Origin: a virus
Strand: one strand, 5' to 3'
Virus record (IMG/VR): IMGVR_UViG_3300050821_000465
Location: 1 to 51,530 of that record
DNA length: 51,530 nucleotides
The notes under the pieces are model-generated. The model saw nothing but the letters and a program-made list of their open reading frames with translations. It did no database searches and was not told the DNA's origin. Made by a program: the position numbers and the translations under genes. This document shows, one piece after another, positions 2,813 to 51,530 of the stretch (position 1 is the first letter of the stretch; each line of letters opens with the position of its first letter).

Positions 2813-2992
2813 TTATTGCACTCCTTGTGCGAGCGCGACCTTCGCGCGCTCGATTGCGTCGTGCAGACGTTCGCTCATGAACGGCAGGTCTTCGATCGCG
2901 TACTGAACGATGTCCTGCAGAATGGCGCGAAAGTCGGCGCGGCTCATGTTGGTTTCGATCCTGATTGACATGTCGGATCGCGGCGTCATCAT
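2813..2992 (-). CDS. Small helical protein (59 aa)
   Basis: A 59-residue ORF running from ATG at 2992 to TAA at 2813. The product starts MMTPRSDMSIRIETNMSRAD and ends in a predicted amphipathic helix (AIERAKVALAQGVQ). Its start shares bases with the stop of the LexA-like gene (TGATG), as at other junctions in this operon, and it fills a gap that would otherwise be empty. A 72-residue reading in another frame over the same DNA is arginine/histidine rich and looks like a shadow. Function unknown. Confidence 0.65.
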   Translation of the reverse strand: MMTPRSDMSIRIETNMSRADFRAILQDIVQYAIEDLPFMSERLHDAIERAKVALAQGVQ

Positions 2993-3267
2993 CAGCGGTA
3001 CTCCATGGCATGTGGCATCTCTGTCTTCTTCTGGCGTCGCGGCGCGAGACGGATCGAGCGAAACTTTCCCGGCTTCATCTCGATGTATCCCTTGACTGCG
3101 AGCCGCACCAGACAGCGATGCGTTGTGGAGCTGTAGAAGTTCGGTCCGGCGGCGGTTGCGATCTCCCGCACCGTCGGCGAACCATGTTCACGGATCGCGC
3201 GTCTCACGGCTGCAAGAACGTCGCGTTCCGCACGTGTTAGCGGTTCGACTGTGGCGTGACTATCCAT
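2992..3267 (-). CDS. LexA-like winged-helix regulator lacking a protease domain
   Basis: A 91-residue DNA-binding protein. Residues 9-75 follow the LexA N-terminal domain: LTRAERDVLAAVRRAIREHG, then SPTVREIATAAG (first helices of the HTH), STTHRCLVRLAVKGYIE (recognition helix) and a wing ending FRSIRL. The S24 self-cleavage domain of LexA/CI repressors is absent; a basic tail of about 17 residues follows instead. It sits at the divergent switch region and is the first gene of the leftward recombination operon, so it is the best candidate for a phage repressor or operon regulator. Without a cleavage domain, induction must work by another route. Confidence 0.8.
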   Translation of the reverse strand: MDSHATVEPLTRAERDVLAAVRRAIREHGSPTVREIATAAGPNFYSSTTHRCLVRLAVKGYIEMKPGKFRSIRLAPRRQKKTEMPHAMEYR

Positions 3268-3277
3268 GTGTCTCTAG

Positions 3278-3306
3278 TGATAACAACTGTCCCACCGCAC
3301 TGTCAA
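3278..3306 (-). promoter_or_regulatory. Leftward promoter for the LexA-like/recombination operon
   Basis: Read on the minus strand, TTGACA (complement of 3301-3306) is followed after exactly 17 bases by TTATCA (complement of 3278-3283). It lies 11 bases upstream of the LexA-like start codon. It is a near-consensus sigma70-type promoter, and its spacer contains one CTGT half-site. Confidence 0.75.
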
Positions 3307-3407
3307 TGCCCGATTCGTGGGCAATTTCATGATTGCTCTGGTTGCTTGAGAAATGCGCGAAGATGTGCTATACCGAAGCGGTCTGTACAGCACTGTAGTA
3401 CTGACAG
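3287..3407. promoter_or_regulatory. Operator-like region with CTGT/ACAG half-sites
   Basis: CTGT occurs at 3287, 3300, 3383 and 3393, and ACAG at 3387 and 3404. CTGTACAG at 3383-3390 is a perfect palindrome, and CTGT-N7-ACAG spans 3393-3407, close to the CTGT-N8-ACAG LexA box of gammaproteobacteria. The sites overlap the leftward promoter spacer and lie just downstream of the rightward -10 box, where a repressor would block transcription. Assigning them to the LexA-like protein is inference. Confidence 0.5.
3346..3374 (+). promoter_or_regulatory. Rightward promoter for the AlpA-like gene
   Basis: TTGAGA at 3346-3351 and TATACC at 3369-3374 are separated by 17 bases, about 50 bases upstream of the AlpA-like start. 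Operator-like half-sites follow within 35 bases of the -10 box. Confidence 0.6.
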
Positions 3408-3425
3408 AGTGAAGAGGTTTCAGCG

Positions 3426-3638
3426 ATGCCGAAAACATCGTCGTTCGTCTCCCGGCGTCTGCTGCGCATCAAAGCAGCCGCAGAATATATCGGACTGTCA
3501 CCGTTCGTTGTACGTCAGCTCGTGCAGCGCGGCGAACTGAAGGCGGTCGTGATGCAAGGTCACTCGCCATGGTTGATCGACCTGCGCGATCTCGACGACT
3601 GGATCGAGCGCAACAAGGTCAGCTACGCCGCTGGGTAA
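3426..3638 (+). CDS. AlpA/excisionase-like helix-turn-helix protein
   Basis: A 70-residue MerR-superfamily HTH protein (HTH_17/AlpA type): LLRIKAAAEYIGLSPFVVRQLVQRGEL is the helix-turn-helix, followed by a wing and WLIDLRDLDDWIERNK, the usual end of excisionase-type domains. Such proteins bind DNA next to integrases and act as recombination directionality factors or regulators. It lies directly before the integrase, which has its own promoter in between, so excisionase or integrase regulator are the two likely jobs. Confidence 0.85.
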   Translation: MPKTSSFVSRRLLRIKAAAEYIGLSPFVVRQLVQRGELKAVVMQGHSPWLIDLRDLDDWIERNKVSYAAG

Positions 3639-3661
3639 TGACCGTTACTCTGTGATAACTA

Positions 3662-3691
3662 TTGACACCACTCTGATGCGTCCTGCATTAT
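3662..3691 (+). promoter_or_regulatory. Integrase promoter
   Basis: TTGACA at 3662-3667 and CATTAT at 3686-3691 with an 18-base spacer, about 40 bases before the integrase ATG. A GTGATAAC sequence (3652-3659) abuts the -35 box; the same word occurs at other regulatory gaps in this genome. Confidence 0.6.
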
Positions 3692-3730
3692 TCTGCTAGG
3701 AGCTGTAAAGGCTCCAATCACAAAACAGAA

Positions 3731-4918
3731 ATGAGGACACGGATGGGTGTCTACGTAGCAGAGCACGGCACATTCCGCATCGAGTTCGTCCTGAAGGGCG
3801 AGCGATACACGAAGCGAATCAAGACAAACAAGAAGTGGCTGGCAGAGAAACGCGAGACCGAGTGGAAGAAGCTGCTCGCCGGGAACGTGGACGGCGACTG
3901 CTATGACTACACGGTCGCGCAGATATACGAGCGGCTGCTGAAGTCATACGGCAAGGGACTCCCGGTGGATCAGCAGAAGGCGAGTCTCGAAGGTGCGCAG
4001 CAACGCTGGGACAAACGGCTGCAGAAAAAATTCGGACACATGAAAGCGATGGACGTGACAGGGGATCACCTCGAAGCGTATCAGGACTGGTGTCAGCGCA
4101 ACGAGCAGGACATCTGGTCCACGGAGATCGAGAAGACGCTGTCCGCTGCGACCATCAATCGCGACCTGTCGGCACTGGGGCGCGCCTTCCAGCTCGCGGT
4201 CCAGAAGAAGAAGATTCCATCGGCTCCCTACTGGTCCAAGCTCGACGAGTCTGGACCGCGCAAGGGATTCGTCAACGAAGAGCAGTACGGCAATCTGGTT
4301 CAGCACGCACACGACCTCTGGCTCCGCGTCCTGCTCGCGCTGGGCTACACCTACGGATGCCGACGCGGCGAGCTGCTGGCGCTGCGTGTCTGGCAGATCG
4401 ACATGGACGATCGCGTCATCTCGATCGAAGCGGACCAGACCAAGAACGGCGAAGGCAGACAGGCAGTGATGACGCAGGAAGTCTACGACGTGCTGGTGCA
4501 TGCCGTCGCTGGCAAGGGACCGAACGACTTCCTGATCTCACGCGCGAACGCCAGCGAACCAGTGCTGGACTTTCGCGGAGCATGGGACACGCTGTGCAAC
4601 GCTGCCGGGATGCCGTGGCTGCTCTTCCATGATCTGCGCCGCAGCGCGATCCGCAACATGATGCGTCACGGCATTTCCCAGTCGGTCGCCATGGTGCTCT
4701 CCGGTCACAAGACGGTGTCGGTGTTTCAACGCTACAACATCGTTGACCTGTCCACGATCCGCGAAGCGGCCAAGCGCATCGAGCAGGGAGCAGAGCGCGA
4801 TCGCGAAGTCATCAGCAAGAAGGCGGCGCGCAAGGAGTCCCACCAAAAGTCCCACCAGTATGCACCAAAACTGGTGCAACAGGATGGTGCAGGAAAGAAG
4901 CAATCTGTTGTAAACTAA
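3731..4918 (+). CDS. int: Tyrosine site-specific integrase
   Basis: A 395-residue phage integrase with the full catalytic set: Arg211 (GCRRGELLALR), Lys238 (QTKNG), His300-x2-Arg303 (FHDLRR), His326 (SGHKT) and Tyr335 (FQRYNI), the nucleophile. An N-terminal arm-binding domain (residues 1-55) and a SAM-like core-binding domain (about 60-165) precede the catalytic half. The 3' end of the gene itself carries two AGTCCCACCA direct repeats and a GCACC hairpin that recur beyond the gene, so the coding sequence overlaps the P-arm of attP. Expected target: a tRNA-Leu gene (see 4926-4964). Confidence 0.95.
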   Translation: MRTRMGVYVAEHGTFRIEFVLKGERYTKRIKTNKKWLAEKRETEWKKLLAGNVDGDCYDYTVAQIYERLLKSYGKGLPVDQQKASLEGAQQRWDKRLQKKFGHMKAMDVTGDHLEAYQDWCQRNEQDIWSTEIEKTLSAATINRDLSALGRAFQLAVQKKKIPSAPYWSKLDESGPRKGFVNEEQYGNLVQHAHDLWLRVLLALGYTYGCRRGELLALRVWQIDMDDRVISIEADQTKNGEGRQAVMTQEVYDVLVHAVAGKGPNDFLISRANASEPVLDFRGAWDTLCNAAGMPWLLFHDLRRSAIRNMMRHGISQSVAMVLSGHKTVSVFQRYNIVDLSTIREAAKRIEQGAERDREVISKKAARKESHQKSHQYAPKLVQQDGAGKKQSVVN

Positions 4919-4925
4919 GGTAGTT

Positions 4926-4964
4926 GCGAAAGTGGCGGAATTGGCAGACGCACCAGACTTAGGA
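4926..4964 (+). other. attP core: 5' half of a tRNA-Leu(UAG) gene
   Basis: Eight bases after the integrase stop begins a sequence that reads as the acceptor strand, D arm and 5' anticodon stem of a bacterial tRNA-Leu, including AGTGGCGGAATTGGCAG and the anticodon loop CTTAGGA with TAG at 4960-4962. The match stops at the anticodon loop; what follows cannot close the anticodon stem, so it is not a working tRNA. A tRNA half beside an integrase is the standard signature of attP. Unusually, the shared half is the 5' part, so strand exchange probably falls in the anticodon loop. Confidence 0.75.
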
Positions 4965-4991
4965 ACCGAACCATGCCAATTTCGCCACTTT
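4929..4991. repeat. 18-bp inverted repeat around the attP core
   Basis: Bases 4929-4946 and 4974-4991 are inverted copies of each other over 18 bp with a single G-T mismatch, separated by 27 bases that include the anticodon-loop sequence. The right arm is thus an inverted copy of the tRNA D-arm region. It ends in TTTT, so as RNA it could also serve as an integrase terminator. The remaining gene-free DNA up to 5331 holds the arm repeats and the first early promoter. Confidence 0.75.
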
Positions 4992-5274
4992 TGATCCTCT
5001 TGATTCCATTGCCTATCCTGCTGACAGCGCGCTACTTACATCGAAAGTGACAGGTCGATCCTGTGCGGTCCTGCGAGCATCTGAGCGGTCCTGAGTCCCC
5101 CGAAAGTCCCACCAGAAAACGCACCAGACTATGCACCGAAAATGGTGCAACTCATTTCCCGAATCTGCACCGAAACTGGTGCAAAAAATCTGCACTGAAA
5201 CTGGTGCAGATTCGTCGAGTCCCACCAGAAGTCCCACCAGCCTTTGGACGCATCAGACCTTTTTCATTTTCCTG

Positions 5275-5303
5275 TTGACACCTTCCGAAATGAAGCGTAC
5301 GAT
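5275..5303 (+). promoter_or_regulatory. Early promoter module, copy 1
   Basis: TTGACA (5275-5280), a 17-base spacer CCTTCCGAAATGAAGCG, and TACGAT (5298-5303). A conserved leader ending GATCAGAAGGAGATC provides the ribosome-binding site for the gene at 5332. The spacer is nearly the same in the other five copies. Confidence 0.8.
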
Positions 5304-5331
5304 TGATGTAGATCAGAAGGAGATCAGAAAC

Positions 5332-6123
5332 ATGGCAAAGGAAACCAAGACCAAGATCAAGACCCGCAAGGTGCTCGACGTGACCAACAAGACAACAGGC
5401 GAAGTCACTCGCATGACCTACCAGAAGTTCTACAGCCACTTCGGCTACGGCGACCGCAACGCTCGTTACTTTAAGCATGTGCAGGACATCCTGCGCGGTC
5501 GTCATGAAACCTTCAACGCCGTCGAGGTTGAAGAAGTCGTACCTGTGATCGACAAGGTCGCGTTGAAGGCTGCGATCTTCCAGACGCCGATCGCACTGGC
5601 TGTCGAGCCGCTGCGTCAGCTTGCAATCGAACGCGCAGAGGAAGCAGCGCACAAGATGATCGAGCGTGCGACCGCCGAACTGGAAGCTGCTGGCAACGAC
5701 CTGAAGGTCGTCGCGCCTTACCCAAGCAGCAACCTGAGCACTGCGGAGTACCGGAAGCAGCTGGCGAAGTACCAGTTTTTTGTGTCGATCACTACCTCGC
5801 GTGATCCGATTGCGGCTTCGATGACTCGCTACTCGACGAACCTGATCGACATCAGCCCAGAGCTGGTTGAGCGGTTCATCCAGCGCAGCCGTGAGAATGC
5901 ATCGTTCGAGTACGAAGCGTTTGTGACGAAGCTGGTCGCGAAGGTTGGCGAAGTGAAGACCGCGAAGCTGGAAGGCGACTCGGTCTGGCAGTACAGCTAC
6001 CTGACCGTCACCAAGCAGGACGGCTCGAAGGAGTGCTGGAAGACGCAGATGATCCTGAACCAGTCAATCTACGGCAAGCTGTTCAACCAGTTTCCGACGC
6101 GCAAGATGAAGGCGGCGAAATGA
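5332..6123 (+). CDS. Early protein of unknown function (263 aa)
   Basis: A 263-residue mixed alpha/beta protein, lysine rich at the N-terminus (MAKETKTKIKTRK), with a central alanine/glutamate-rich helix (LAIERAEEAAHKMIERATAELEAA). I do not recognise a family. The ATG at 5332 follows AGGAGATC; an apparent upstream extension to 5131 reads through the attP repeats and promoter and is discarded. It is the first gene after attP and the first to use the repeated early promoter, so a role at the start of infection or induction is likely. Confidence 0.8.
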   Translation: MAKETKTKIKTRKVLDVTNKTTGEVTRMTYQKFYSHFGYGDRNARYFKHVQDILRGRHETFNAVEVEEVVPVIDKVALKAAIFQTPIALAVEPLRQLAIERAEEAAHKMIERATAELEAAGNDLKVVAPYPSSNLSTAEYRKQLAKYQFFVSITTSRDPIAASMTRYSTNLIDISPELVERFIQRSRENASFEYEAFVTKLVAKVGEVKTAKLEGDSVWQYSYLTVTKQDGSKECWKTQMILNQSIYGKLFNQFPTRKMKAAK

Positions 6124-6332
6124 GCCGCCTGACGCTTCGCACCATCAACGCCGAGATCGCCAGACGAGGGGGAAAGGAGACCCTCGTTCGGGGCGAAGGG
6201 TACTTCTACTTCGTCAACGTTGGCTGGCGTCAGGAGCCGTCCAGTGGCGTTTACGTGTACCGCCTGAATGAACTCACGCTGGACCAGTGGCTGGGCGAGC
6301 TGGGGGACAAGCGGATCGAGGCTGAAAAATAA
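6120..6332 (+). CDS. Small early protein (70 aa)
   Basis: A 70-residue protein beginning MSRLTLRTINAEIARRGGKE, a pattern seen in many small phage proteins of unknown role: a helix followed by a beta hairpin, here GEGYFYFVNVGW, and an acidic C-terminal helix. ATGA overlap with the preceding gene shows coupled translation. No function assigned. Confidence 0.8.
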   Translation: MSRLTLRTINAEIARRGGKETLVRGEGYFYFVNVGWRQEPSSGVYVYRLNELTLDQWLGELGDKRIEAEK

Positions 6333-6345
6333 TTTCCGATTTCTG

Positions 6346-6374
6346 TTGACACCTTCCGAAATCGAGCGTAGGAT
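6346..6374 (+). promoter_or_regulatory. Early promoter module, copy 2
   Basis: TTGACA (6346-6351), 17-base spacer CCTTCCGAAATCGAGCG, TAGGAT (6369-6374), then a leader with GATCAAAGGAGATC before the ATG at 6402. This is closest to the consensus of the six copies. Confidence 0.8.
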
Positions 6375-6401
6375 TGAAACAGATCAAAGGAGATCAAAAA
6401 A

Positions 6402-7139
6402 ATGACAACAGCAAACACCAACTTCGACGAGCGGATCGGGCAGGTCGTCCGCAACGGCAAGGCGATCTACTACGCGTACATCAACAACGTACTGGTCGAG
6501 CGTAATGGCTACTCTGAAGTACTCGACGCACTCAAGCTGGCGGCGAAGGAAGCAGCCGCGAAGGAAGCAGCCAGCAAGCGCCAGTACGAAGCTGGCGACA
6601 CCTTCACCGAACACATCAATCAGGGCGACCGCGATTGCACCGTGATTGCGGTGCTAGGCGACAAGTACCTCTTCGAGTACACCATGCCAGCCGGAACCAG
6701 CGCGATCAATAACGAGCGGCACAAGGCAGTCAGCTACAAGAGCCTCTCCGACAAGTGGCTGCTCGCGATCGAAGAGCAGTTCGGTCTGAGCAACTTGGTC
6801 GCATGGCCGCAAGGCGGCGGCATGGGCTGGAAGATGGAAATTCGCAAGCAGCTGGAGACGCGGCTGGCGGATGCCCAGCGCAAGGCGCAGCGCATGACGT
6901 CAGCCGATGTCGCGCGCGAGAAGGCACAGGAGCGGCTCAACGCCGTTCCTTTCGATCCGGCGTTGTCGCCAGTGATCAACGACTACCTACGGTACTGCTA
7001 CTGGTCCGTCAACGCCAAGAGCCACGACGTGCGCGAGAAGAACCGCAAGCAAGCGACCCTGACGCTGTCGAGCATGACGTCTGATGCGGCGCAGATCGCC
7101 GTCACCGAAGAAACCAAACGCAACCTGCTGAAGTGGTAA
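6402..7139 (+). CDS. Early protein of unknown function (245 aa)
   Basis: A 245-residue protein. The N-terminal 60 residues end in an alanine/lysine helical repeat (KLAAKEAAAKEAASKRQYEAGD). A beta-rich middle follows, then a long charged helix (MEIRKQLETRLADAQRKAQR). No family recognised and no membrane segment. It is the only gene between promoter copies 2 and 3. Confidence 0.8.
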   Translation: MTTANTNFDERIGQVVRNGKAIYYAYINNVLVERNGYSEVLDALKLAAKEAAAKEAASKRQYEAGDTFTEHINQGDRDCTVIAVLGDKYLFEYTMPAGTSAINNERHKAVSYKSLSDKWLLAIEEQFGLSNLVAWPQGGGMGWKMEIRKQLETRLADAQRKAQRMTSADVAREKAQERLNAVPFDPALSPVINDYLRYCYWSVNAKSHDVREKNRKQATLTLSSMTSDAAQIAVTEETKRNLLKW

Positions 7140-7140
7140 A

Positions 7141-7169
7141 TTGAATCTTTCCGAAATCGAACGCATCAT
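7141..7169 (+). promoter_or_regulatory. Early promoter module, copy 3 (diverged)
   Basis: TTGAAT (7141-7146), 17-base spacer CTTTCCGAAATCGAACG and CATCAT (7164-7169), then ACTGAAGGAGA before the ATG at 7185. The spacer is conserved better than the -35 and -10 boxes, which argues that the spacer itself is a protein-binding site. Confidence 0.65.
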
Positions 7170-7184
7170 ATCTACTGAAGGAGA

Positions 7185-7415
7185 ATGAAAGTGAAATACG
7201 ACCTGATCAACCTAGAGACCGCCCAGCCGCACGGCGACTTTGAAACTCTCGACGAAGCACGCGGCGCTGCCCAGTACGACCGCCTGACCGCATACGCGAT
7301 CTGGCACGGCTTCACCTGTGTCGTTGTCTGTGAACCAGACATCGACGACGACGACCAGCGCGGCGTTCCGGCGATCATGCCGGAGCCGCTCCGCAAGGTG
7401 CGAGGTGTCCAGTGA
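7185..7415 (+). CDS. Small early protein (76 aa)
   Basis: A 76-residue acidic protein (MKVKYDLINLETAQPHGDFE...) with a central helix containing DEARGAAQYDRLTAYAIW and an acidic stretch (EPDIDDDD). It opens a chain of seven genes, 7185-8996, in which each start overlaps the previous stop by four bases. No family recognised. Confidence 0.75.
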   Translation: MKVKYDLINLETAQPHGDFETLDEARGAAQYDRLTAYAIWHGFTCVVVCEPDIDDDDQRGVPAIMPEPLRKVRGVQ

Positions 7416-7612
7416 ACGAACGCGACACGCAGCCGTACAAGTTCGTTCTGTACATGAAGGACGGCAGCAGGATCACTGGCGGCGCAGAGTCGAAGGAACT
7501 CTGCATCGCCCACTTGCGACACTGTCTGCTGCCGCCAGACGGCAACGACATCGAGTCTGCGTGGTATCTGGGACGCTACGGCAACGGCATCCCCAAAGAG
7601 GTGACGCAATGA
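7412..7612 (+). CDS. Small early protein (66 aa)
   Basis: A 66-residue protein starting at GTG (GTGA overlap with the gene before). It contains the phrase KFVLYMKDGSRITGGAESKELCIAHLRH, a beta hairpin followed by a helix. Function unknown. Confidence 0.72.
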   Translation: MNERDTQPYKFVLYMKDGSRITGGAESKELCIAHLRHCLLPPDGNDIESAWYLGRYGNGIPKEVTQ

Positions 7613-7863
7613 AAACGAAACTGAGCCAAGCCCAGACCGACGTGATCTGGGCGATGCAGCACGGTCGCCAGCTACGCCAGACCGTCAGCTACGGAGTTGC
7701 CTCGACCTGCGGCTTATACGTGAACGACTGCGAGGAACGCCGCGTGGCACTCAGGACGGTCACCGCGCTGCGGCAGCGCGAGCTGATCCACTGGGTGACC
7801 GTGAAGGGCGCTGTCTACGTCTACAGGCTCACTGATGCTGGTCGTGCGGAGGTGGCGTTATGA
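7609..7863 (+). CDS. Winged-helix-like early protein (84 aa)
   Basis: An 84-residue protein starting MKTKLSQAQTDVIWAMQHGR. The second half (RRVALRTVTALRQRELIHWVTVKGAVYVYRLTDAGRAEV) reads as a recognition helix followed by a wing and the 'LT.AG' ending common in MarR/PadR-like winged helices. A DNA-binding role is plausible. ATGA overlaps at both ends. Confidence 0.75.
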   Translation: MKTKLSQAQTDVIWAMQHGRQLRQTVSYGVASTCGLYVNDCEERRVALRTVTALRQRELIHWVTVKGAVYVYRLTDAGRAEVAL

Positions 7864-8114
7864 CCGGATGCATCAAGGTCACTCACATGCGTGCGCCGAA
7901 CGACGTCGCGAAGCACGCGAGTAAACGCATGGTGTCGGCTGATGGCACACGCTGGGCGATCGGACGCAAACAGAAACGGCATCTGGCGAATCACATGTTC
8001 GACATCGTCGAGTGCTGGACGCTCAAGCAGCGGATCGACGGCAAGGTCGTCACCATGGACATGCACCGCGACGAAGCAGCTGCCATCGAGTTCATCAAGG
8101 CGGTGACGCTATGA
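7860..8114 (+). CDS. Small early protein (84 aa)
   Basis: An 84-residue basic protein (MTGCIKVTHMRAPNDVAKHA...) with a histidine/lysine-rich centre and a C-terminal helix (DEAAAIEFIKAV). ATGA overlap upstream and downstream. Unrecognised. Confidence 0.72.
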   Translation: MTGCIKVTHMRAPNDVAKHASKRMVSADGTRWAIGRKQKRHLANHMFDIVECWTLKQRIDGKVVTMDMHRDEAAAIEFIKAVTL

Positions 8115-8332
8115 ACACGACATCGCGATGGTATCCGGCGAAGGATCGCTGCGTGGGATCGTTCCGCACCTTGCGAAGCGGGAATCAGGAAGTCAGCGCA
8201 GATGGCAAGTGGCGCGTCCAGTGTCCATGGTGCAAGCGGTTCGTTGGCATACGGACACAGGGGCGGATGGCTGGCGTGGTACTGGCACAGCATCGCGCAC
8301 CAGCTCCTGAGAACAAAGAAGGTGTCCAGTGA
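8111..8332 (+). CDS. Small protein with a CPWC zinc-knuckle-like motif (73 aa)
   Basis: A 73-residue protein. WRVQCPWCKRFVGIRTQGRMAG has one Cys-x2-Cys pair; Cys16 (KDRC) and histidines near the C-terminus might complete a metal site. Start chosen at ATG 8111 by overlap with the previous stop. Function unknown. Confidence 0.72.
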   Translation: MNTTSRWYPAKDRCVGSFRTLRSGNQEVSADGKWRVQCPWCKRFVGIRTQGRMAGVVLAQHRAPAPENKEGVQ

Positions 8333-8511
8333 CGACCATCAGGAAGATCAGGAAGCAGAAGAAGGCGAGCGACCTGCTGCATCGCGCGTGGTGTCACCTC
8401 GCGCACCAGAGCGACCTGCTGCGCTCCAATCAGCAGTGGGACTCGAACATGGATGCGCGCCAGCTGCTCAGCATCCTGCGCTGGAAAGTCATCTCGGAGA
8501 TCGGGCAATGA
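8329..8511 (+). CDS. Small basic early protein (60 aa)
   Basis: A 60-residue lysine/arginine-rich protein with a GTG start (GTGA overlap). Two helices are likely (KASDLLHRAWCHLAHQSDLL and ARQLLSILRWKVISEI). Unrecognised. Confidence 0.68.
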   Translation: MTTIRKIRKQKKASDLLHRAWCHLAHQSDLLRSNQQWDSNMDARQLLSILRWKVISEIGQ

Positions 8512-8996
8512 ACGAGCACCAGCAGCAACTCGTCGAGTATCTCAAGCAGTGGGTCACGCTGCGGCGGCAGATGCACAACGGACACGACTGGGCCTACCTG
8601 TGTATGGAAGACTTCCTGATCCGTGAAGGACGATGGTACAAGCCGCAGCCACTGCCGGAGGTTTATCACTTCGGCAAGATCAAGCAGTGCTTCAACAACT
8701 CGTACGCGCTGGCGTGTGAGATGACACCTGATGTGCGCTACGTGGAAGGCATCGCAGCCAGCATCATCCCGGTCCACCATGCGTGGCTCACCGATCGGCA
8801 GGGCAACGTGATCGACGTGACGCTGCGCGAGCCAGCCAGTGCATACATCGGCATCGAAGTCCCGATCGCGAAGGCGCACGCAGCACTGGCGCGCGAGATG
8901 ACTGTGCTGGACGACTGGCGCAGTCACCAGCACATCTTCCACAAGCCGTTCCGGCAGTACTACCGCAACCTGTACGGTTCCGAAATCGACCGCTAA
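8508..8996 (+). CDS. Papain/transglutaminase-like putative cysteine hydrolase
   Basis: A 162-residue protein with an ordered Cys-His-Asp pattern of the papain/transglutaminase fold: Cys61 in KQCFNNSYALA at a helix start, then YVEGIA, His91 in PVHHAWLTD and Asp103 in GNVIDVTL. A similar plan appears in the unrelated minus-strand protein at 45502-46107. Known folds of this type include amidases, peptidases, deamidases and acetyltransferases, so the substrate cannot be told. No signal peptide. It ends the chain of seven coupled genes. Confidence 0.7.
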   Translation: MNEHQQQLVEYLKQWVTLRRQMHNGHDWAYLCMEDFLIREGRWYKPQPLPEVYHFGKIKQCFNNSYALACEMTPDVRYVEGIAASIIPVHHAWLTDRQGNVIDVTLREPASAYIGIEVPIAKAHAALAREMTVLDDWRSHQHIFHKPFRQYYRNLYGSEIDR

Positions 8997-9035
8997 ATTA
9001 CTGAAATAAAGGGGAATAAAAGTTCCCATATTTCC

Positions 9036-9064
9036 TTGTGCTCTTCTGCAATCGAGCGTATGAT
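9036..9064 (+). promoter_or_regulatory. Early promoter module, copy 4
   Basis: TTGTGC (9036-9041), 17-base spacer TCTTCTGCAATCGAGCG, TATGAT (9059-9064), then GATCGAAGGAGAGC before ATG 9091. A small hairpin GGGAA/TTCCC at 9012-9027 just upstream may stop transcription from copy 3. Confidence 0.75.
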
Positions 9065-9090
9065 TATCACAGATCGAAGGAGAGCAGGAA

Positions 9091-9969
9091 ATGGCAAAGA
9101 AAGCGAAGAAGGCGGCGGTGGTGATCAGCAAGCAGGAGATGATCGACAACGTACAGGCACTGGTCGCGGCGCATGGCAGCGAGCTGGCGTTCGTGGTGAA
9201 CATGAGCGGCGGCAAGGACAGCGTCAGGATGCTGGGCTACCTGCAGGAGAACTTCCCGAACGTGAAGCAGTATGTCGTGTACGCGGACACTGGGTTCGAG
9301 CACGTGAAGCCAGTCAGCGCCGAAGAGTTCGGTCGCCAGCGCAGCGCCACATATGGTCTGGACCTGCACGTGGTCCGCAACGCGAAGAAGACGTACCTGT
9401 CGATGGTCGAGAAGCGCCGCATGTTCCCCTCGCCGAAGTACAGGCAATGCACCAGCGACCTGAAGCGCGCGCCGATCCAGAAGTTCCTGCGCAACCTGCC
9501 GGAGACGGTGATCATCAACTGCACTGGCATCCGCGCTGGCGAGTCGGTCTCGCGCTCGAAGCAGAATCCGTGGAAGGCGAACAAGAGCCTCTCCAAGCAG
9601 GGCAAGGTCACCAAGAAGGGCAAGGTGATCAAGAGCCGCACGGTGTTCGAGTGGATGCCGATCTTCTCTGACAGCTTGCACGATGTCCTTGACTGGCACT
9701 CGACGACGAACACGCCGTTGCATCCGGTCTATGTCTGGGCTGGTGGATACCTGAAGCGTCTCAGCTGCCGCGTGTGCATCTTCTCGACGACCGCCGACAT
9801 TCACGCGATCTACAAGAACGATCGCGAAGCGTTCGATTTGGTCGCCAACCTCGAACAGCGCATGGGCTTCACGATGAAGGCGGAAGGTTCGCTCTTCCAG
9901 ATCATCGGGCAGGAAGTCGCCGCCGACGACCAGTACGGCAGCGAAGAAGAGATGCCCTGCGCGGCGTGA
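9091..9969 (+). CDS. DndC/PAPS-reductase-like ATP pyrophosphatase
   Basis: A 292-residue member of the adenine-nucleotide alpha-hydrolase superfamily. SGGKDS (residues 39-44) is the PP-loop that binds ATP or PAPS, and YADTGFEH follows at about 64-71. GIRAGESVSR (146-155) matches the G-x-R-x2-E-S-x2-R motif of DndC and CysD/CysH-type enzymes. Cys120, Cys226 and Cys229 (CRVC) could hold an iron-sulfur cluster. DndC works in DNA phosphorothioation with DndD/E and a cysteine desulfurase, but none of those is encoded nearby. Phage copies are common and their role is unproven. Alone on promoter copy 4. Confidence 0.85.
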   Translation: MAKKAKKAAVVISKQEMIDNVQALVAAHGSELAFVVNMSGGKDSVRMLGYLQENFPNVKQYVVYADTGFEHVKPVSAEEFGRQRSATYGLDLHVVRNAKKTYLSMVEKRRMFPSPKYRQCTSDLKRAPIQKFLRNLPETVIINCTGIRAGESVSRSKQNPWKANKSLSKQGKVTKKGKVIKSRTVFEWMPIFSDSLHDVLDWHSTTNTPLHPVYVWAGGYLKRLSCRVCIFSTTADIHAIYKNDREAFDLVANLEQRMGFTMKAEGSLFQIIGQEVAADDQYGSEEEMPCAA

Positions 9970-9978
9970 AAATAATCC

Positions 9979-10007
9979 TTGCGCTCTTCTCAAATCGGGC
10001 GTATGAT
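9979..10007 (+). promoter_or_regulatory. Early promoter module, copy 5
   Basis: TTGCGC (9979-9984), 17-base spacer TCTTCTCAAATCGGGCG, TATGAT (10002-10007), then a leader with GAAGGAGATTC before ATG 10042. Copies 4 and 5 share the TCTTCT spacer variant. Confidence 0.75.
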
Positions 10008-10041
10008 AATTACAGATTAGAAATTGAAGGAGATTCAAGCA

Positions 10042-11154
10042 ATGAGAACCGACACACACCGTCCATCAGCCATCAACCCAGAAGAGTACACGTACGTCGC
10101 CATGACTTGCATTAAGATCGAGTCCTTCGGTGACTGCCAAGTCGCCCTGATGCATCGTGAAACCATCAAGGCGCACATGGTGCACACTGGCGGCAACTAC
10201 AGCACGCACGAGCACGGCGGCAATTGCGCGATCTGCGGATCGGTGAATGCGATCTACACCGCACTGTTCTATCACCAGCTGACGAACACCTACATCCACG
10301 TCGGCACCGACTGCGCCCAGAAGCTGGACATGGGCAACGCGCGCGAGATGAACCTGTTTCGCAAGGCGATCGGCGATGCGCGCGAGGCACAGGCTGGCAA
10401 GCGCAAGGCGCAAGCGATCCTCGCCGACAACGGCTTGACTGCCGCGTGGGACGTCTACACGACCAGCGGCTTCGCGCCGGAGCACTTCACCGATCCCCTG
10501 CACGACTGCCATGACTTCGGCTGCAAGCGTCCCGGCTACGAAGAGACGACCATCACCGACATCGTCGGCAAGCTGGTGAAGTACGGCTCGATCTCAGAGA
10601 ACCAGATGAGCTTCGTCGGCAAGCTGCTGGCAAAGATTCCCCAGCGCGAGCAGATCGCCGCAGAGCGCGCTGCAGAACGCGAAGCCGCTGCGCCCTGCCC
10701 TACCGGACGCGTGACCGTCAGTGGCATCGTCCTGTCGATCAAGGAGCACGAAGGCAACTACGGCTTCACGACGAAGATGACGGTCAAGGCTAACGAAGGC
10801 TTCATCGTTTGGGTGACGATGCCCAGCGGAGCGGACGTCGAGCGCGGATCGGCGATCACCTTCACCGCGACCTTGACGCCCTCGAAGGACGATCCGAAGT
10901 TCGGGTTCGGCAAGCGCCCTGTGATGGGCGTATCGAAGGCGCGCAAGGCTCCAGTGCAGCCGGAGCAGCCAGTGCAGCAGGAGCAGCCGATCGCGGCTGA
11001 CTCCTCGCTCCTGAATGGCAAGCCAACCGCCCAGTACATGAGCGCGGTTGCAGCGCACATCATTGCCGCCGACAAGGCGGAAGGCGGCGACCTGTCCGGC
11101 GCAGCACTCGATGCAGTGATCGTCATAGCGAATGTGATGACGTCAGTGAAATAG
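10042..11154 (+). CDS. Zinc-finger plus OB-fold-like early protein (370 aa)
   Basis: A 370-residue protein. Residues 50-105 carry His/Cys pairs typical of a small zinc fold (HEHGGNCAICGSVNAIY, then THVGTDCAQKL-like text). A helical segment follows, with a second Cys/His cluster (HDCHDFGC). Residues about 225-300 (GRVTVSGIVLSIKEHEGNYG...MTVKANEGFIVWVTMPSGADVERGSAITFTATL) look like an OB-fold beta barrel. The rest is glutamine/proline linker and a C-terminal helix. Single-stranded nucleic acid binding is a fair guess. Start chosen at 10042 by GAAGGAGATTC. Confidence 0.75.
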   Translation: MRTDTHRPSAINPEEYTYVAMTCIKIESFGDCQVALMHRETIKAHMVHTGGNYSTHEHGGNCAICGSVNAIYTALFYHQLTNTYIHVGTDCAQKLDMGNAREMNLFRKAIGDAREAQAGKRKAQAILADNGLTAAWDVYTTSGFAPEHFTDPLHDCHDFGCKRPGYEETTITDIVGKLVKYGSISENQMSFVGKLLAKIPQREQIAAERAAEREAAAPCPTGRVTVSGIVLSIKEHEGNYGFTTKMTVKANEGFIVWVTMPSGADVERGSAITFTATLTPSKDDPKFGFGKRPVMGVSKARKAPVQPEQPVQQEQPIAADSSLLNGKPTAQYMSAVAAHIIAADKAEGGDLSGAALDAVIVIANVMTSVK

Positions 11155-11157
11155 TTG

Positions 11158-11186
11158 TTGACACCTTCCGAAATCAGGCGCATCAT
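11158..11186 (+). promoter_or_regulatory. Early promoter module, copy 6
   Basis: TTGACA (11158-11163), 17-base spacer CCTTCCGAAATCAGGCG, CATCAT (11181-11186), then GATCAAAGGAGATC before ATG 11215. It drives the last early unit, 11215-13450. Confidence 0.78.
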
Positions 11187-13242: not shown

Positions 13243-13450
13243 GAGCAGGATGTCGGAAGCGGCATCGATGATGGGCAAGAAGCGGTGGAAGGGAATCTCG
13301 AAAGCGGAGCGCAGTCGGCTGGCTCCGCGCAACGGCGGACGACCAGCGAAGTACACGGTCAAGTGTACGCGCTATCCCGGTCACCACTTCTCGCCGAAGA
13401 CGCAGCGGTGTCCCTGCGGCTACGTGCGGGATGCTTCACTGGTTGAGTAG
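13226..13450 (+). CDS. Small basic protein (74 aa)
   Basis: A 74-residue basic protein (MTTISKSRMSEAASMMGKKRWKG...). The C-terminal CTRYPGHHF...RCPCGYV has Cys and His residues that may bind zinc. It starts inside the previous gene (17-base overlap) after GGAAGGGGAGCG. Last gene of the early rightward block. Confidence 0.7.
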   Translation: MTTISKSRMSEAASMMGKKRWKGISKAERSRLAPRNGGRPAKYTVKCTRYPGHHFSPKTQRCPCGYVRDASLVE

Positions 13451-13461
13451 GGAATGGCGGC

Positions 13462-13650
13462 TTACTCGCGTGTCTTTCGTTTCAGGCGCGCGAGTATGAG
13501 ATCGACAGCGTTCATCAGTATTTCCCGCGCAAATGTTGCGGTCCCAAGATTTAACTTGAACTTTGCTCGACCTGCTTCTTCAATCTTCCTCTTCTCAGTT
13601 GGAGTCAGGCGGATCGTGATCATTTCACTGCGCAGCTCTTGATCGTCCAT
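13462..13650 (-). CDS. Ribbon-helix-helix DNA-binding protein (62 aa)
   Basis: A 62-residue protein with the RHH pattern: strand EMITIRLTPTEKRKIEEAGR, then FKLNLGTATFAREILMNAVDLIL. It is similar in plan to MobC-like and Arc-like regulators. It is the only minus-strand gene between 3267 and 43412, set between the early and late blocks, so a transcriptional regulator of the late switch is a reasonable inference. GTTATCA (13656) and TGATAAC (13704) lie just upstream of its start and may be its own or the LexA-like protein's sites. Confidence 0.72.
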   Translation of the reverse strand: MDDQELRSEMITIRLTPTEKRKIEEAGRAKFKLNLGTATFAREILMNAVDLILARLKRKTRE

Positions 13651-13831
13651 GGTTCGTTATCAACAGCGTATCTTGACTTTCGCGCACACGTCCACGAAAT
13701 CATTGATAACTTCACCACTTTTGTCCCATTGCACTGCGCCACTTCTTCGGCGTAGCGTCTCACTTCAAGTGCCAGTTACTCTGTTGGTACTTTGGGCGAC
13801 TCTCCGGTTTAAAAGGTGGGCAACGGCGACC

Positions 13832-14700: not shown

Positions 14701-14928
14701 TGACAGAATCACGCCAATCGCGTCAGGTTTCGATCTAACGATTTCAAGGTGTAAGGGGTCCACCGGGGAGCCAAACGCCCCTCTCAGGGCAATTCTGAGC
14801 GATTCCCGGCTGGTTTAGAGGCGATAGACGTCACTATAGTCTTGACACCGTCGTGCTGGCGTATGTTATCGTCCCGGTTAACTTCCCCAGTCAGCCGCTT
14901 CCACGCCAGCGCGACGACGTGACCCTGA
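14701..14928 (+). promoter_or_regulatory. Noncoding leader with a late promoter
   Basis: These 228 bases hold no convincing ORF. TTGACA at 14842-14847 followed by TGTTAT at 14864-14869 (16-base spacer) is a good promoter ahead of the small gene at 14929. Upstream there are short dyads such as CTCAG/CTGAG near 14787-14803. The early promoter spacer is absent here, so this unit is controlled differently. The promoter would mainly serve 14929-15201, because a strong terminator follows. Confidence 0.5.
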
Positions 14929-15201
14929 GTGAATAAGCCGATCTACGTCTACGCGAGCGACGCGAACACCAGCGTCGATGCTCCCAGCTTCCGCATCTCG
15001 CGCACCGACGCTTCTCATCGTTTGCAGAAAGGCTACGTGCGGTATCTCTCCGAAGATGCCGTGCAGCTGATGCCGCCAGCCGGGATCGAGGGCGATCGCC
15101 GGGACCAGATCATCAGCGGTCTGTACGATCAGGCATGGATGCCACGATGGAGTGCATGCTATCTGGTCTGGCAGATGCGCACCGAAGCGCCCATGGACTA
15201 A
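14929..15201 (+). CDS. Small protein of unknown function (90 aa)
   Basis: A 90-residue protein with a GTG start, beginning MNKPIYVYASDANTSVDAPS, with a tryptophan-rich end (WMPRWSACYLVWQM). No family recognised. It has its own promoter and is followed by an intrinsic terminator, so it forms a single-gene unit between the early and late regions. Confidence 0.65.
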   Translation: MNKPIYVYASDANTSVDAPSFRISRTDASHRLQKGYVRYLSEDAVQLMPPAGIEGDRRDQIISGLYDQAWMPRWSACYLVWQMRTEAPMD

Positions 15202-46493: not shown

Positions 46494-46657
46494 TGTGTTC
46501 TCCATTCAAATGATGATTGCCAGTTGTTTGACTGACAATACTATTTTCTCATGGGCGAACACACACATCCCCAGTATCCATGCGGTTTCGGTGATTGTCT
46601 TCTGATAACGTGCGCATTATCAACACGAAAATAAATCGCTTGACAAAAATTTCCGAC
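46494..46657 (-). promoter_or_regulatory. Intergenic regulatory gap with TGATAA/TTATCA dyad
   Basis: About 160 bases without a gene. TGATAAC (46603-46609) and ATTATCA (46616-46622) form an inverted pair around GTGCGC. On the minus strand TAGTAT (complement near 46538-46543) could serve as a -10 box for the gene below. This is the main internal gap of the leftward operon, so a promoter for 46104 and downstream genes is likely here. Confidence 0.45.
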
Positions 46658-47425: not shown

Positions 47426-47969
47426 CTGGTTCTCCTTCCGTTGCGAGTTTCAACATGACGTCGGCGATCAGGTCCAGCGTGCCGTCCTTCTGCAGCTGCT
47501 TGATCCGCGCAAACAGTTCAAGAAATTCGTTGAGCCGATCGATCTCGGTCTTGTAATCCGACTCCAGAAAAAACTTCCGCACATCGCGCAGCGCGGTCAG
47601 GCACTGGCGGCATTCGTTCTCGACTGACATTCTGGTGGAGCGGATATTCTGCAGGTTGGTGTGTAGTAGCGGGAGAACAACGTCGGTCAGAGTGGAGACT
47701 TCCTTGCACGTTCGGTCCATCTCCGATCGAGCTTTCTTCAAGTCCTCGCTGACCAGTCTCATCATTTCGGCAGTGTCTTCCATGCGTCCCCCGGCGTTGA
47801 TCACATAGCACATGTTCTCGATCTTGATTTTCGATCCCACCCAGTGTCCGTTCCTCTCGTCCACGTACGATCTCATCCATTGATTGCAGGGACCGCGCCG
47901 CTCCAGCAGCTTGTCCAGCTGGTGCAGTTCAGCGTCGCTCATCAGGCTGTTGATCAGATCGGTGATCAT
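47412..47969 (-). CDS. Helical protein with a cysteine pair (185 aa)
   Basis: A 185-residue, nearly all-helical protein (EDLKKARSEMDRTCKEVSTLTDVVLPLLHTNLQNIRS...), with a CRQC pair near residue 122. A long coiled coil is likely. No family recognised. ATGA coupling with the winged-helix gene before it. Confidence 0.75.
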   Translation of the reverse strand: MITDLINSLMSDAELHQLDKLLERRGPCNQWMRSYVDERNGHWVGSKIKIENMCYVINAGGRMEDTAEMMRLVSEDLKKARSEMDRTCKEVSTLTDVVLPLLHTNLQNIRSTRMSVENECRQCLTALRDVRKFFLESDYKTEIDRLNEFLELFARIKQLQKDGTLDLIADVMLKLATEGEPDVRK

Positions 47970-48352
47970 GCGGTCGTCAACTTTCTGCGTGGATCGGTGG
48001 ATGTAACCATCTGTTCAAACACTCGTCTGGTAACCAGTACGGCTGCTGGCGAGCTGGTGCGTGTCAGCCTTCTCTTGCCAGACCGAACCAAGCGACCGTC
48101 CATCAAAAGCTCCGACATTCTGGGCGCGACATGGTTGTGACTGCATCTCCATGCTGCTGCGATCTCGTCCGCCGTGGCTCCCCACGTTCCGCGCTGGTCA
48201 ATGAACGCGAGAATCTTTAGTCGCGTTTCTTCCTTGTTCGGCTGAAGACGCTGGTTGGCAGCTTCGCTCTCTGGGTTGCCGTGGTGATGACTACGCGTAA
48301 TATCGAAGTCATCGGGACCGAACAGGTCGCCCTGCGATTTGTCGTCAGTCAC
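47966..48352 (-). CDS. Winged-helix DNA-binding protein (128 aa)
   Basis: A 128-residue protein. After a disordered start (MTDDKSQGDLFGPDDFDITRSHHHG), residues 40-110 form a winged helix: EETRLKILAFIDQRGTWGATADEIAAAWRCSHNHVAPRMSELLMDGRLVRSGKRRLTRT. Such MarR/Rrf2-size domains in replication operons regulate transcription or load replication factors. Confidence 0.8.
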   Translation of the reverse strand: MTDDKSQGDLFGPDDFDITRSHHHGNPESEAANQRLQPNKEETRLKILAFIDQRGTWGATADEIAAAWRCSHNHVAPRMSELLMDGRLVRSGKRRLTRTSSPAAVLVTRRVFEQMVTSTDPRRKLTTA

Positions 48353-50660: not shown

Positions 50661-51435
50661 TGCCCCTACTCCTGTTCTGTTCCTTCGAGAGCCAGCTGGT
50701 GATGTGGGCGTTGATCCCGCCGCGTGTCTTCCGGCGCGCTGGGTGTGACAGGTTCCATGCGACGCAGTTGCGGAGTTCCTGATGCACGTCGATCGCAGGG
50801 AACAACTCCTGCCACTTGGCGATCTCCGGCTCGTAGACGGGAAATTCAGACTTGTCGTTCAATGGGATCGAAACGAAGGGCGATTCCGGCGGCGGCGCGG
50901 ATGCCGATTCGGCTTTCGGCTCCGCGCAGTAATCTTCATCAGCGAAGAATGTATGTGTAGCAATACTGTTCGTACTATCAAGAGAGTGTATGTCTGCTTC
51001 TGCTTCTGCTTTGTCGTCACATTTGTCACCGTGACGCTTGGTGACATTGTGTGACACGCGTGACGCGTGACGCTTCTTCTCGCGCCATCTCTGGGTGCGG
51101 ATGCGACCGCGCTCGCGCACATCTTCCGGCGATCTGGTCTGTCGGTACTTGTCGTAGTTCAGGATCAGCCAGCCGCCGTCGATCGGCTCGATGCGGCGTC
51201 CTTCGTGCTCTGACGAGCGGCTGAAGGCATCTGGTGCTTGGAACTTGTCGATCGCGGCTTGTGCTTCCTCGGTTGTGACTCCGGCGAAGTGCGCCAGTCC
51301 CGGCAGCGAGATATTCGCCAGTCCGTCCCGGTCCGCCAGTGCGAGCAGTGTGATCCAGACGATTTTTGTTGCGTGGCTTTCCTGCCAGATGGTCGAACCG
51401 ATGATCGAAGAGAAGAGCTTCGTGAATCCGGTCAT
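50593..51435 (-). CDS. Replication initiator (O/DnaD-like)
   Basis: A 280-residue protein. The N-terminal winged helix (FTKLFSSIIGSTIWQESHATKIVWITLLALADRDGLANISLPGLAHFAGVTTEEAQAAIDKF) and WLILNYDKYR segment are typical of phage replisome organisers. The basic, low-complexity middle is encoded by the iteron cluster, and the C-terminal third is a DnaD-like part (WQELFPAIDVHQELRNCVAWNLSHPARRKTRGGINAHITSWLSKEQNR). The start codon straddles the contig join. In-frame ATG further upstream (near base 50 of the left end) has no good SD. Confidence 0.85.
   Translation of the reverse strand: MTGFTKLFSSIIGSTIWQESHATKIVWITLLALADRDGLANISLPGLAHFAGVTTEEAQAAIDKFQAPDAFSRSSEHEGRRIEPIDGGWLILNYDKYRQTRSPEDVRERGRIRTQRWREKKRHASRVSHNVTKRHGDKCDDKAEAEADIHSLDSTNSIATHTFFADEDYCAEPKAESASAPPPESPFVSIPLNDKSEFPVYEPEIAKWQELFPAIDVHQELRNCVAWNLSHPARRKTRGGINAHITSWLSKEQNRSRGNGRTGKDVIDQIRNHRTMPDFG
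51016..51071. other. Iteron cluster, putative replication origin
   Basis: Seven GTGAC or GTCAC units start at 51016, 51025, 51031, 51041, 51051, 51060 and 51067, mostly one helical turn apart. They lie in the middle of the initiator gene next to an A/T-richer block (about 50945-51000). Lambda O has the same plan: iterons plus AT-rich DNA inside the initiator gene. Confidence 0.6.
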
Positions 51436-51530
51436 GAAGTCCCATCCGAAAAATGTCGCCGCCGCGATCTGGTGAAGGAGAACATCAAGCCAGAATCGCG
51501 ACGGCGTTCGCTGTGAAACCCATTTAGAAA
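51434..51530. repeat. Contig-end overlap, right copy
   Basis: Identical to bases 1-97. The replication initiator starts at its left boundary, so on the circle the gene, its spacer and the zinc-ribbon gene at 125-400 are contiguous. It should be counted once. Confidence 0.9.

Follow-up and report, generated by a model that had tools for sequence, protein, structure and literature searches.

Six copies of a promoter and leader module with a conserved spacer in a phage genome: a possible operator for a single regulator

The virus record IMGVR_UViG_3300050821_000465 of IMG/VR, which was analyzed as one window covering the whole record (51,530 bases), carries six copies of a short module between positions 5275 and 11186, and these raise the question of why bases lying between the two boxes of a promoter are conserved from copy to copy. 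Each module consists of a -35 box, a spacer, a -10 box and a purine leader with a Shine-Dalgarno site; all six are found on the + strand, in intergenic sequence and immediately 5' of a ribosome site and start codon (Table 1). An earlier note on this DNA had placed modules at 5275, 6346, 7141, 9036, 9979 and 11158 with a 17-base spacer, and the spacer was found to be exactly 17 bases long in 6/6. The spacer consensus given in that note, yCTTCyGAAATCGAGCG, is exact at 6346, but the other five copies deviate from it by 1-3 bases. Similarly, the proposed common leader, GATCAAAGGAGATC, is exact at 6346 and 11158 and nearly so at 5275 and 9036, but the leader has an insertion at 9979 and lacks GATC at 7141, where only GAAGGAGA is retained. 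A division into two variants is approximate, since the spacer begins with CCTTCC in three copies and TCTTCT in two but with CTTTCC at 7141. The TCTTCT pair (9036 and 9979) combines poor -35 boxes, TTGTGC and TTGCGC, with better -10 boxes, TATGAT.

The six-fold recurrence of the module exceeds chance. A degenerate module pattern had six forward matches in the record, with none on the reverse strand and none in the reversed control. When each copy was scored with a leave-one-out position weight matrix, the copies reached 26.8-40.2 bits, compared to a maximum of 13.9 anywhere else on both strands, and with the spacer alone every copy ranked first in the genome. Using the spacer and the -10 box without the -35 box, all six scored at least 32 bits, while the best of 200 dinucleotide-shuffled genomes reached 23.1. 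A search of this genome with a motif built from the six sites, as had been proposed earlier, therefore returned only those six as clear matches.

Judged by their sequence, the six modules are well supported as promoters. Hexamers of the sigma-70 type are expected at a spacing of 16-18 bp; here the spacing is 17 bp and the two boxes together match 8-10 of the 12 consensus bases. The boxes appear to compensate for each other, as a perfect TTGACA is paired with -10 boxes that match at 4/6 positions and TTGTGC or TTGCGC with TATGAT. Moreover, the 25 bases upstream are on average AT-rich (0.57 versus 0.42 genome-wide, P ~5e-5), and the purine leader AGATCAAAGGAGATC, which includes the ribosome site, starts at the expected transcription start.

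Conservation of the spacer goes beyond what these promoter functions would need, as had been claimed earlier. Mean pairwise identity among the copies reaches 0.78 for the spacer, compared to 0.66 for the -35 box, 0.72 for the -10 box and 0.52 for the ungapped leader, and drops to 0.31 over the 20 bases of upstream flank and to 0.44 over the six bases that follow the -10 box; the outer half of the -35 box, at 0.27-0.40 per column, is also more variable than the spacer. Because the six bases after the -10 box lie inside the same cassette, they can fairly serve to gauge drift within it since the copies arose. Spacer identity is higher than theirs (p = 0.003) and than that of the upstream flank (p = 1e-6), p-values that are indicative since columns were treated as independent and the copies are related. 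By comparison, two control sites with promoter-like boxes, one before the integrase gene and one in a leftward operon, do not carry the motif, so that the motif is apparently dispensable for the host polymerase. Taken together, the identity of the spacer above that of the internal intervals and the motif-free control sites indicate that neither core-promoter function nor simple duplication is enough to account for the conserved spacer.

Table 1. Coordinates of the modules and of related or control sites in the window.
Feature	Position	Strand	Boxes and spacer	Leader and context
Module 1	5275..5303	+	TTGACA-CCTTCCGAAATGAAGCG-TACGAT	Leader AGATCAGAAGGAGATC; gene from ATG 5332
Module 2	6346..6374	+	TTGACA-CCTTCCGAAATCGAGCG-TAGGAT	Leader AGATCAAAGGAGATC; gene from ATG 6402
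Module 3	7141..7169	+	TTGAAT-CTTTCCGAAATCGAACG-CATCAT	Leader TGAAGGAGAATGAAA; opens run of small overlapping genes (GTG 7191 to 8996)
Module 4	9036..9064	+	TTGTGC-TCTTCTGCAATCGAGCG-TATGAT	Leader AGATCGAAGGAGAGC; PAPS-reductase-like gene from ATG 9091
Module 5	9979..10007	+	TTGCGC-TCTTCTCAAATCGGGCG-TATGAT	Leader with insertion AGATTAGAAATTGAAGGAGATT; gene from ATG 10042
Module 6	11158..11186	+	TTGACA-CCTTCCGAAATCAGGCG-CATCAT	Leader AGATCAAAGGAGATC; gene from ATG 11215
Decayed seventh copy	8970..8998	+	CTGTAC-GGTTCCGAAATCGACCG-CTAAAT; no -35	Followed by TACTGAAATAAAGGGGAATAAAAG, resembling module 3 tail
Extra match to spacer and -10	46598..46620	+	TCTTCTGATAACGTGCGCATTAT; no -35 on + strand	
Control promoter-like site	3662..3691	+	TTGACA-18-CATTAT; without spacer motif	Before integrase gene
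Control promoter-like site, leftward operon	46510..46538	-	TTGTCA-17-CATCAT, spacer GTCAAACAACTGGCAAT; without motif	Before Shine-Dalgarno and ATG

These features could be explained if the module were a promoter and leader cassette whose spacer serves as the operator of one regulator, a reading to which we attach an evenly balanced probability. Host RNA polymerase would read each module as a compact sigma-70-type promoter with a strong ribosome-binding leader, and the A of AGATC (about 5310, 6381, 9071, 10014 and 11193), ~7 bases past the -10 box, would be the first base of a transcript with a 5' leader of ~20-30 bases. Copies of the cassette would have been placed before six gene units in an accessory or early region beside int and attP. 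The 17-base spacer would at the same time be the asymmetric binding site of a single regulator, most probably a phage-encoded repressor that would silence the six units in the lysogen and so provide a common switch for all of them. Regulator binding is proposed here because the conservation of the spacer is in excess. The earlier interpretation, in which a regulator binds the spacers and fires six early units together, is therefore supported as to the promoter-like appearance and the conservation beyond core need, while regulator binding, the term "early" and joint firing fall outside the supported part.

Several points weigh against this reading. The conservation test uses few columns and related copies that are not independent, both control sites are promoter-like by sequence only, and all inference comes from six sites in one genome. 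The module has no significant dyad (p = 0.09 versus shuffled columns), and a palindromic operator was rejected on this value. Moreover, no module is found at the own genes of the LexA-like protein (2992-3267, with a LexA DNA-binding domain only), the HTH_17 excisionase (3426-3638) or the MarR/HTH-like protein (47966-48352). The guessed repressor/immunity region (3200-3800 or 13440-13720) likewise has no module match, the only weak match being the site at 46598.

The restriction to one genome follows from the search for relatives: IMG/VR, GTDB and the GenBank phages, as far as these could be searched, yielded none that carries the module. The pattern scans register exact pattern matches, and near copies of the record may be missing from them. 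Those of IMG/VR returned 0, 0 and 65 single matches, the last compared to an estimated ~56 expected by chance; no stretch had two, and the best-scoring ones were unlike the module beyond the pattern. The GTDB scan (84,980 genomes) gave 3 matches, 0 with cassette context, and two of these look like coding sequence, probably prfB. A blastn search with module 2 (window 6340-6402) against 50,697 phage records found six weak partial matches (E 0.5-6), none in a mycobacteriophage. A protein search of IMG/VR found no relative encoding the 5332-6123 product, the PAPS reductase, the 10042 protein or the integrase. Terminase relatives with 76-78% identity were found; one of these, compared whole (G002), closely shares only the terminase, together with an integrase of ~29% identity, and no module match was found in the ten contigs searched. 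The Tunturiibacter phage Tunturi_5 had 3-mismatch matches only.

Copying of the cassette in the absence of a regulator is the main rival explanation. The modules would then be recent duplicates, or handles for RecE/RecT-type recombination, by which genes are added behind a ready promoter and leader, and the likeness of the spacers would reflect shared ancestry or similarity kept by recombination. The phage has RecE-like and RecT-like proteins, and neighboring copies are alike (5275 and 6346; 9036 and 9979; 7141 and 8970). The last of these, a decayed seventh copy (TTCCGAAATCGACCG) that was not in the earlier note, sits at the end of an open reading frame (8508-8996), has no gene of its own and precedes the intact 9036 module and its PAPS-reductase gene by only ~65 bases; it seems to be the remnant of an older cassette whose place a newer one has taken. 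The downstream proteins are not credible paralogues (self-matches were short or weak), which suggests that cassettes, not whole genes, were copied. However, plain copying does not explain why the six bases after the -10 box and the outer half of the -35 box have diverged far more than the spacer. Copying without a regulator is thus rather unlikely, while copying and an operator may act together. A spacer that tunes strength or shape for a host sigma or accessory factor, with no dedicated regulator, would also be conserved. Some spacer bases influence sigma-70 promoters, and boxes and spacer form linked variants here, but the conservation spans nearly the whole spacer instead of a position or two, the motif is absent from both promoter-like control sites (3662, and 46538 on the minus strand), and it was not a common element in the exact pattern scans of 84,980 genomes or IMG/VR, where matches were at chance level. 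An optimum intrinsic to the polymerase therefore seems very unlikely.

Control could also be exerted on the RNA, where CUUCC or UCUUCU of the spacer would pair with the purine-rich ribosome site in read-through mRNA so that only local transcripts are translated; comparable hiding of a ribosome site in read-through mRNA has been described for some T4 genes. At 9036, the ribosome site is unpaired with a probability of 0.01 in the read-through transcript, whereas this value is 0.89 for the local transcript; when the spacer is shuffled it is 0.33 (z = -2.1). The other five modules, however, gave z from -0.2 to 1.3, with accessibility as with shuffled spacers, and cognate spacer-leader pairs were no better than swapped ones (P = 0.19). 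A hairpin hiding the ribosome site is unsupported overall, except perhaps at 9036, and we regard this explanation as highly improbable. A further proposal, which concerns timing and overlaps the other explanations, is that the modules are constitutive or lysogeny-expressed promoters of prophage cargo rather than of early lytic genes, with the shared spacer tuning expression. The first module lies ~300 bases beyond a tRNA-Leu-like half adjacent to int, so that integration would place the modules at one end of the prophage. The genes for replication and recombination lie on the opposite strand and have other promoters, and some genes just 3' of the repeated motifs of mycobacteriophage Adephagia are expressed in lysogeny (PMC11373665). 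By contrast, the many tiny overlapping open reading frames resemble early host-takeover regions, and we consider lysogenic expression possible but doubtful.

Among known systems, the Arc/Mnt-type operators of phage P22 lie between the -10 and -35 boxes, as is proposed for the regulator site here, but these are palindromic and few. The closest precedent is found in the cluster K mycobacteriophages (Adephagia, TM4, Pixie, Anaya), where start-associated sequences (SAS) are found at start codons and extended start-associated sequences (ESAS), ~50 bp long and with an inverted repeat, upstream of them (PMC3203893). Adephagia has seven ESAS, conserved intergenic sequences of 46-47 bp, each with a SigA-like promoter of 17-18 bp spacing (PMC11373665); ESAS have been proposed to bind a protein, but their role is still open and unproven (PMC3203893, PMC11373665). 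As in these phages (PMC3203893, PMC11373665), multiple intergenic copies of a promoter with a conserved ribosome-site element, here six and one decayed, precede non-structural genes of a temperate phage. Unlike the ESAS, which have an imperfect 15-17 bp inverted repeat, the modules have no significant dyad (p = 0.09) and contain a conserved element that is asymmetric and takes up the spacer. The sequences are also unrelated (no mycobacteriophage match for module 2), and the phage is sheath-tailed with a possibly acidobacterial host. The present modules are therefore alike in anatomy to the ESAS/SAS modules but are not members of that family. The operators and stoperators of L5 and cluster A mycobacteriophages are likewise numerous asymmetric sites that follow the direction of transcription in a temperate phage genome, where a single monomeric repressor binds them (PMC9283540). 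However, those sites are 13 bp and often away from promoters, whereas the six clear sites here all lie within promoters, and no homologue of the repressor was found.

The site at 46598 is the best non-module site when the -35 box is left out (17.4 bits; shuffled genomes average 0.07 sites of at least 17 bits). Within the leftward operon it falls in a gap of 152 bases, where it overlaps the -10 box of a possible minus-strand promoter (TTGTCA 46646-46641, GATAAT 46621-46616), which is suggestive of a free-standing operator over the likely promoter of this operon. One regulator with an asymmetric site might then control both the six cassette-like accessory units and, via 46598, the opposite operon, linking both transcription arms of a temperate myovirus; under this wider scheme, which we consider quite unlikely, the spacer site would also turn each gene with its promoter into a self-contained, mobile member of the regulon. 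A shorter sequence, TGATAAC, occurs 7 times in the window (raw count), five of these at presumed control regions (3278, 3653, 13656 on the minus strand, 13704 and 46603), namely those of the LexA-like/excisionase genes, the integrase, 13.65 kb and 46.6 kb; it is a candidate for a real phage operator or a DnaA-box-like site. In addition, TTGACACC...GCGTATGTTAT at 14842-14872, before a gene at 14929, resembles the module ends with a shorter middle and is possibly a late promoter.

A 97-base direct repeat at both ends of the record (1-97 and 51434-51530) indicates that it is probably a complete circular genome, with a GC content of 58%. Encoded proteins include a portal, head protease, major head protein, tail sheath, tape measure and baseplate as well as an integrase and an excisionase-like helix-turn-helix (HTH) protein, a set that points to a temperate phage with a contractile tail; the RecE-like and RecT-like proteins and a replication initiator are encoded on the strand opposite to the modules. 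The tRNA-Leu-like 5' half adjoins int (~4925-4990, as read from the sequence) and suggests the position of attP; a complete tRNA was not found, and Rfam gave no match in the first 16 kb. Repeats of the form CACCAG/TGCACC...GGTGCA at 4836-5249, around the int end and the putative attP (e.g., at 4853, 5124, 5158 and 5183), are possibly integrase arm sites. The six units adjoin this region, where prophage-expressed accessory genes are also common, and consist mostly of accessory-like genes of unknown function, small open reading frames and the PAPS-reductase-like gene, not of replication genes. The AlphaFold model of the 6402-7139 protein is poor (pLDDT, predicted local distance difference test, 52). 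The PAPS-reductase-like protein (9091-9969) has 62.5% identity to a protein of Tunturi_5, whose host is an acidobacterium, and this one gene, weak evidence in itself, is the best single hint that the host is possibly acidobacterial. It also resembles the defence proteins BrxP, SspD and DndC, but the similarity to these models is only partial, and a defence-system role of the gene was set aside for this reason. Phage contigs with a terminase 76% identical to that of the window carry a CRISPR-like array (L008:4394-5528, also L010 and L012, partly L009:6-716) with ~15-16 copies of a 37-base repeat, GTCTCAGTTCTTTTCCCACTGAGCAGGGCTTTGCAAC, at a 72-75 base period. The L009 array has spacers absent from the others, and its content thus seems to vary from one contig to the next.

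Promoter-leader modules in several copies recur among temperate phage genomes but are poorly explained. The modules described here represent an unrelated example in which the conserved element sits squarely within the spacer and drift can be gauged inside the cassette itself, and they provide a testable case of gene addition to one regulon. Moreover, if the host is acidobacterial, the module may offer ready promoters for a host group of soil phages in which genetic tools are scarce.

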